The notes under the pieces were generated by a model. It did no database searches and was not told the DNA's origin. It worked only from the letters and a program-made list of their open reading frames with translations. Made by a program: the position numbers and the translations under genes. A stretch of 64,000 bases of DNA from Brachionus plicatilis. Taxonomy: Eukaryota > Rotifera > Eurotatoria > Ploima > Brachionidae. The stretch lies in assembly GCA_010279815.1 (NCBI GenBank), contig QEOQ01000508.1, forward strand, positions 1,030,254-1,094,253, read 5' to 3'. Positions 60,201 through 61,174 of the stretch are shown here, piece by piece. Each line of letters opens with the position of its first letter. Positions within the stretch are counted from its first letter, which is position 1.

Positions 60201-61174
60201 CTTCTTTGTACACATATCGAGTTGAATTATCGAATTCATTGAACTCTTTTTGTACATTTAAAATAACATATCTAAAAGCTTCTTGAATAATTAACTTTAA
60301 AAGTTGAGTATTTTGAAAATAAAACCTTCCTGGAGGATCTCCATTAGAGTCGAAATCAATTTTTTCGCCAGTTATTCCGCTAAACGAGCTCTCTCTTATA
60401 TTAGTAAACAATTCATTTCCTGTTATTTTTTTCATTCCATCACATAAACCCGGTAGTCCTTCACAAACCTAAAACATGGCAATTTAAAGATTTGATTTTT
60501 TATTTAAAAAAAAAATACATTTTTATGGATCCGAGCTAAACCATGAGTTACTGCTAGTAGAGCGTTTATAACATAGCTCATTTTAGGGTCTTGTTGGTAG
60601 TTGTGAAGCGAGTCTGGATAATAGTCTCCAGAAAATTTTTCCACTATTTTATCTGTATTTATTTTGCACACAAAAGGAAACTTTGAATGACAATTCTTAA
60701 ACTTAACACAATAATCGAATTCGCCAGAGTTGTTTGATATAATGATGGAAATACATTGTTGGTTGTTGTATATTTTACTATTGTAAAATGTAATTACATC
60801 TTCGGAGCTGATACTTGATTCAAAGTCGCTCATTTCATAATTTTGCTCAAAGGCATTTCGCTTGGCTGTTTTACCACAAGTTCGAAAAATTATGGACTCA
60901 GCATCAAAATTATACTCATTTACAATATTTGATTTTTCGGTACCGGTGTTAAGTTCTATTCTAACATGCATTCTTGAAAAAAGTTTTTTTATTTCACTTT
61001 GATTGCGAATGTGATTAAACAAATCTTTTAAATCTTGCTGATTATTTAAATCGAGCAGATCCGAATAATGATATTTGCTTTCACATTTTTTACGTGCATC
61101 TTGCCAATTCAAATTTTCGCTCGAAAACCAATAGCACTTATTTCCTATTTCTTGGAATTCAATCGGACATTTCC
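57296..61174 (-). CDS. mGluR: Metabotropic glutamate receptor (class C GPCR) fused in frame to a C-type-lectin-like domain, 5' end not seen
   Basis: Exons: 60519-61174, 60082-60468, 57296-59110, with matching phases. The first exon encodes a C-type-lectin-like domain: CPIEFQEIGNKCYWF, NWQDARKKCES, QCISIIIS, then NCHSKFPFVCKI. Without a break it continues into the receptor's binding domain (QDPKMSYVINALLAVTHGLA). The second has VCEGLPGLCDGMKK, whose lysine matches a glutamate contact in mGluR1, and SNGDPPGRFYF. The third begins with the Cys-rich linker (GGLKCCWNCKKCEE, CDLGYWPNKNLTGCD). Seven membrane helices follow, with the family signatures [30 protein letters not shown] and PKVYIIIFEPEKNQRSAFTT. 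The cytosolic tail of roughly 290 residues is acidic. The N-terminal lobe of the binding domain is not visible. An acceptor at 61175 suggests upstream exons, but an ATG at 61196 is a possible alternative start. Confidence 0.9.

Follow-up and report, generated by a model that had tools for sequence, protein, structure and literature searches.

Can a whole recognition domain be built into the glutamate-binding domain of a metabotropic glutamate receptor (mGluR)? The question is raised by a gene in a 64,000-nucleotide stretch of the Brachionus plicatilis genome (GenBank assembly GCA_010279815.1, contig QEOQ01000508.1, positions 1,030,254 to 1,094,253 of the forward strand), hereafter the window. 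A sequence-only reading had proposed that one exon of this gene encodes a C-type-lectin-like domain (CTLD) within the Venus flytrap (VFT) domain of an otherwise normal mGluR. We found the same architecture, at one position, in three species: B. plicatilis, which also has a public protein record that begins at the CTLD edge (P0001); Brachionus calyciflorus (P0002); and Proales similis (P0003).

A lectin-like exon within an mGluR gene

Our gene model on the minus strand has six exons, which splice to a frame of 4020 nt encoding 1339 residues with one stop. The introns measure 58, 3161, 50, 54 and 971 bp in gene order. Its features are the following, where positions above 64000 are extended coordinates beyond the window end:

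65609-64624, minus: exon 1, with ATG; VFT N-terminal part; signal-peptide-like start by eye
64565-64336, minus: exon 2, VFT; ends ...TPCK in phase 1
61175-64000, minus: window part of intron 2, continuing to 64335 in extended coordinates
60519-61174, minus: exon 3 of 6, CTLD and VFT; 656 bp, open in one frame, phase-1 acceptor, phase-0 donor
60624-61172, minus: CTLD insert within exon 3, 183 residues (KCPIEFQ...EKFSGD), 8 cysteines
60519-60623, minus: VFT segment YYPDSLHNYQQDPKMSYVINALLAVTHGLARIHKN in exon 3, in the same frame as the CTLD, including the lysine equivalent to K409 of mouse mGluR1
60326-60468, minus: exon 4, VFT C-terminal part
60272-60325, minus: 54-bp intron between exons 4 and 5; its 18 codons are absent from P0001, P0002 and P0003
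60082-60271, minus: exon 5, VFT end and start of the cysteine-rich domain
57296-59110, minus: exon 6, cysteine-rich domain (NCD3G), seven-transmembrane (7TM) domain (7tm_3), cytoplasmic tail, stop

Exon 3 is one uninterrupted exon carrying the CTLD and the VFT segment in the same frame, as had been proposed, with exactly the coordinates given; its borders are an acceptor AG at 61176-61175 and a donor GT at 60518, and its join to exon 2 reads ...TPCK-R-KCPIEF. Extending the contig upstream of 61174, which had been suggested as a check, yielded two further VFT exons 0.3-1.6 kb past the window end. We located them by tblastn with P0002 and P0003 against C1:1091000-1109000, a region on the same contig whose first 3.3 kb overlaps the window. 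By eye, no small exons were recognised within 61175-64000 among frames of at least 25 residues. The annotation of P0001 gives an mGluR that is shortened at its N-terminus and starts MIFFKQGKCPIEF. This start falls in intron 2 of our model and the true start lies about 4.4 kb upstream, so that most of the VFT is missing from the public model. The upstream exons rule out an mGluR fragment missing its N-terminal half, as the P0001 annotation would have it.

Downstream, the sequence-only reading had the next two exons completing the receptor, and here it needs correction: 60468-60082 comprises two exons split by the 54-bp intron. This intron is in frame and without stop codons, and is easily misread as 18 extra residues of one exon. 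Its removal gives GDPPGRYV, as in P0001, P0002 and P0003, and hence three downstream exons, not two, complete the gene. The protein closest to the joined window exons is P0001, named 'Metabotropic glutamate receptor 1' (97% over 100% of a query that included the 54-bp intron). With the intron excluded, the window protein and P0001 differ by six substitutions and one two-residue indel from the CTLD onward, a closeness that places the window within the B. plicatilis complex.

The receptor and its glutamate pocket

Its domains, database matches and tree position all point to a group I (mGluR1/5-type) receptor. In Pfam searches, ANF_receptor (the VFT), NCD3G and 7tm_3 occur in this order and above cut-off in both P0002 and P0003; when the window exons were scanned singly, 7tm_3 scored 1.4e-58, and NCD3G and ANF_receptor were found below cut-off. 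P0003 matched mGluR1 in the PDB at about 1e-255, mGluR5 at about 1e-251 and mGluR2 at about 1e-175. In a tree of 30 rows, made with the inserts removed, the three CTLD receptors cluster at 100/100 and the rotifers join Seison at 97/98. Mouse mGluR1 and turtle mGluR5 fall together with the rotifers and Seison in a 23-row group supported at 100/100. Monogononts and bdelloids group without Seison, a long branch, at 93/82. We note that two rows of this tree, the window protein and P0002, were flagged for an unusual letter make-up.

We took thirteen positions of mouse mGluR1 to be the glutamate contacts: Y74, R78, W110, S164, S165, S186, T188, D208, Y236, G293, D318, R323 and K409. The window protein, P0002 and P0003 each match mouse mGluR1 at 12 of the 13, and receptor C140 is retained in all three species. 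The remaining position, S164, reported as a glutamate-contact serine, is glycine in all three, which counts against an unaltered pocket. The available text of PMC5372683 gives R78, S164, S165, S186 and T188 as contacts, and that of PMC9750798 names K409 as a contact but as an exception among the residues whose mutation severely hinders binding. At the level of sequence, the glutamate pocket is largely intact.

Identity of the insert

The sequence matches that identify the insert as a CTLD are weak but consistent across the three species, and a low-confidence structural model agrees with them. Exon 3 matches CLEC4A at E 9.5e-5 (phmmer against the PDB). A profile built from the inserts of the three species gave E 1e-5, and the 60 matches listed of 84 are all CTLD proteins by name. 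The PDB matches listed for the low-confidence exon 3 model, which was the query of both fold searches, are CTLDs. Four canonical CTLD cysteines are present in the window insert (C30, C140, C161 and C169, insert numbering) and in the P0002 insert; the P0003 insert keeps the equivalents of C30 and C169 without the other two. We assume that these cysteines pair as CTLD anatomy would have it. EPN/QPD and WND, which we take to be the motifs of sugar-binding C-type lectins, are absent from all three inserts, in line with the earlier observation that they were not visible in the window.

Several results weigh against this identification. The similarity to CTLDs comes mostly from the first 60 residues of the insert. 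Pfam Lectin_C scored 18.8 bits on the window, under its cut-off of 22.6, and had no match at E<=1 in P0002 or P0003; exon 3 is also absent among the 24 Lectin_C matches of its own genome. An hhalign comparison of the insert profile with seven CTLDs from that genome gave a probability of 19%, with 1 of 100 shuffles scoring higher. These seven were picked from eleven that we read among the 24 matches, the rest of the eleven being dropped as partial or doubtful. The predicted model of exon 3 has a mean predicted local distance difference test score (pLDDT) of 54.5, with 94 of 218 residues below 50. Public records for the CTLD receptors bear no lectin annotation; since the CTLD also falls under the Pfam cut-off, such proteins escape notice.

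Position and distribution of the insert

We aligned 14 mGluRs to place the insert. In the window protein, P0002 and P0003, it lies in VFT lobe 2, immediately past the second of the two loop cysteines. Together with the spliced six-exon model, this alignment bears out the claim of a CTLD-like domain within the VFT of an otherwise complete mGluR. The sequence-only reading had further placed the domain at the site of the variable cysteine-containing loop. The site holds; replacement of the loop does not, because the loop is kept with both cysteines, upstream of the CTLD. One automatic alignment paired the ordinary second loop cysteine with the last cysteine of the CTLD, which we judged a misalignment. 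Ten other rows lack the insert (Seison, three bdelloids, Priapulus, a tardigrade, two ticks, Owenia and Glandiceps), and the fourteenth, P0010, has no letters at the site. The second loop cysteine and the K409-equivalent lysine are separated by 198 residues in the window protein, 157 in P0002 and 199 in P0003, versus 14 in mouse mGluR1.

How unusual is this length? In 164 sequences, namely 163 listed proteins and the window protein, we measured the stretch that begins at the first loop cysteine and ends at the aspartate two positions ahead of the K409-equivalent. It spans 26-41 residues in 147 of them, 25 or fewer in nine, and 58-71 in four arthropod receptors. The longest are P0003 (212), the window protein (211), P0001 (195) and P0002 (170), and no others exceed 71. 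In seven rows at least one of the two anchor residues was missing, and the stretch in these did not exceed 29 residues. Beyond monogononts, no CTLD-bearing mGluR was found among these sequences, which include the best 120 of 1114 matches of a wider search, mostly arthropods and vertebrates. Our homologue searches depend on shared 5-residue words, and the CTLD region of P0003 as query retrieved itself alone and not even P0002; the reach of this search is therefore short.

A second mGluR in the same genome, on contig C10, serves as an internal control: its frame runs without a break through a loop of the usual kind, and no intron interrupts this site. By contrast, a phase-1 intron abuts the 5' edge of the CTLD, a pattern expected of exon shuffling. 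Searched against its own genome, exon 3 matches in full at one place; of three matches, the second best (E 0.019) covers 33 residues at 42% and looks like the beginning of another CTLD. In the explanation that we favour below, the CTLD would have been inserted before Brachionus and Proales parted. The simplest reading is one gain in the monogonont line, of which two genera with the insert were sampled; alternatively, the insert may have been lost in bdelloids. Assemblies also exist for the monogononts Hexarthra, Sinantherina, Notommata and Plationus (PMC11954553).

The insert is the fastest-changing folded part of the receptor. Identity between the window protein and P0002 is 71% in the N-terminal VFT, 30% in the CTLD, 67% in the C-terminal VFT, 69% in the cysteine-rich domain, 76% in the 7TM domain and 49% in the tail; the corresponding values for P0003 are 62, 31, 57, 59, 60 and 31%. 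In B. calyciflorus, the insert is also 41 residues shorter. CTLD divergence of this order, 30% against 67-76% in the other folded domains of P0002, is what weak constraint would produce, and in this respect it speaks against a functional insert. From sequence comparison, the divergence would fit either a co-evolving partner or weak constraint.

Possible roles of the insert

The explanation that we favour, at roughly even chances, is that the protein is a functional glutamate receptor and that its CTLD serves as a docking module, binding another protein and thereby localising or tethering the receptor. The receptor would still bind glutamate and would act at the cell surface as a dimer signalling through Gq. 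The CTLD, with neither calcium nor sugar motifs, would project from lobe 2 and bind a partner protein located on an adjacent cell, in the matrix or in the receptor's own membrane. It may thus give the receptor a second extracellular partner. By analogy with the sushi domain of GABA-B1a, binding of this partner would place or hold the receptor, and the CTLD would have diverged rapidly by keeping pace with a partner that itself changes fast. We favour docking because CTLDs lacking sugar motifs often bind proteins and because class C receptors use ectodomain surfaces for placement, whether added, as in GABA-B1a, or native, as in mGluR6 with ELFN.

The CTLD could instead supply a second input. A ligand bound there would alter lobe closure and thereby adjust the affinity or efficacy of glutamate; the receptor would then detect the coincidence of glutamate with a cue from a surface or the matrix, an idea to which we give a minor share of belief. 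It is lobe 2 that moves when an mGluR is activated, and the insert is flanked by the loop cysteine pair on one side and the K409-equivalent, a glutamate contact, on the other; its adjoining this lysine keeps the idea alive. The available part of PMC5372683 also calls mGluR1 a coincidence detector for glutamate and Ca2+. Against it stand the exception that K409 makes among the contacts, noted above, and the sushi-domain precedent, where a partner peptide is bound without altering receptor activity (PMC9917443, in the portion available). In its strongest form, which we hold to be comparably unlikely, the CTLD would be a second independent sensor in the glutamate-binding domain, reading a cell-surface, matrix, microbial or algal protein and gating or tuning the glutamate response from lobe 2; if so, one receptor would signal glutamate only in the right place.

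It is about equally doubtful that the insert does little, as a tolerated passenger on a permissive loop of an ordinary mGluR. The 58-71 residues that four arthropod receptors bear in this loop would suit such tolerance, as would the rapid divergence and shortening of the insert. However, the frame has stayed open in all three species, from a time before Brachionus and Proales diverged, and one cysteine pair of the insert is present or absent together across them. Relative to P0001, the insert also has no substitution across 183 aligned residues and a single two-residue indel, though in this close comparison the other domains are 99-100% identical too. Improbable, in our view, is a switchable module, in which the use of alternative acceptors at the CTLD end would decide whether the receptor includes the domain. 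There are four AGs, cutting between 60652 and 60613, that would join exon 2 in phase and leave a short loop, and by eye the first is preceded by a pyrimidine-rich stretch. Yet 16 of the 35 AGs in exon 3 fit this phase, so that in-phase AGs at the CTLD end are expected by chance, and the protein models of the three species, themselves predictions, contain the CTLD. Least probable by far is an assembly or gene-model artefact fusing two genes, a concern already raised in the sequence-only reading. All evidence is genomic or predicted, which leaves room for it; nevertheless, we reject an assembly error because the same junction occurs in the separate B. plicatilis record P0001 and in two other species, and because the uninterrupted exon has a single full match in the genome.

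Ectodomains of mGluRs are usually drawn as a fixed clam-shell on a cysteine-rich neck. Here, a whole recognition domain has been placed in one VFT lobe while the glutamate pocket is nearly unchanged. The rotifer receptor marks a site at which a class C receptor can accommodate a domain, and serves as a natural model for designing chimaeric receptors; the animal, being small and culturable, also allows one to test whether an added module places the receptor or alters transmitter sensing.

Other features of the window

Three minus-strand open reading frames (ORFs) within 17623-1498 may be exons of one gene: 16646-17623 matches GPS2_interact and 10212-11195 a Myb-like domain, while 1498-4767 has no Pfam match. 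This gene may encode an NCoR/SMRT-type corepressor. GC content is 0.60 in the bin 2001-4000 versus 0.20-0.36 in the other 2-kb bins of the window. A HORMA domain exon lies at 24654-23719 (minus, Pfam 5.9e-14), and a sulfotransferase ORF at 31519-32715 (plus, Sulfotransfer_3, 1.5e-52), which we take to resemble a tyrosylprotein sulfotransferase. At 47917-48358 (plus), a 126-bp unit is repeated in tandem 3.5 times, nearly identically (99% matches), and encodes a Ser/Thr-rich stretch, which is followed by a weak Pfam match to an EB module. The ORF at 512-1114 (plus), with no Pfam match at E<=0.01, we read as presumably the end of a reverse transcriptase of a non-long-terminal-repeat (non-LTR) retrotransposon.

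Relation to known systems

Two broad families meet in this protein: (i) mGluR1 and mGluR5, with which it shares the VFT, NCD3G and 7TM domains, 12 of 13 glutamate contacts, C140 and its tree position, differing in the 142-184-residue CTLD that the rotifer receptors bear in lobe 2; and (ii) the CTLD superfamily (CLEC/KLR receptors, LOX-1 and snaclecs), with which the insert shares a long-form start (C2, C13), the WQDARKKC helix, the last cysteines, and low-confidence fold and sequence matches. In contrast to the members of this superfamily, the rotifer CTLD sits inside another domain of a 7TM receptor, has no WIGL, EPN/QPD or WND, carries an extra cysteine pair and shows low sequence similarity.

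Our searches of open-licence PMC full text turned up no title, abstract opening or consulted passage on a CTLD in an mGluR or any other class C G-protein-coupled receptor (GPCR), in agreement with the sequence-only reading, which knew of no such mGluR. In the parts available, a rotifer lectin survey (PMC8878817) excluded proteins with transmembrane regions and would hence miss a CTLD receptor, and the word 'lectin' is absent from the main text, as far as available, of a metazoan glutamate receptor study (PMC6307864). The suggested search of related genomes did find CTLD and 7tm_3 in one protein, in B. calyciflorus and Proales similis.

Unlike the rotifer receptor, mGluR6 and mGluR7 are not known to carry an added domain. 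Their ectodomain binds ELFN1/2 across the synapse, according to the available portions of PMC10973816, PMC8671642 and PMC12333015. GABA-B1a shares with the rotifer receptor a class C framework with an extra extracellular interaction module, which binds APP and serves axonal receptor trafficking (PMC6430795, available part). This module differs in being a sushi fold at the N-terminus, not within the VFT, of a receptor for GABA rather than glutamate. From the accessible text of PMC2680970, Hydra Sweet Tooth carries CTLDs on a signalling receptor and venus kinase receptors carry a VFT on another signalling core; both are receptor tyrosine kinases, and neither unites a CTLD and a VFT in one GPCR, as the rotifer gene does. 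The rotifer receptor is a new domain architecture in a known family.
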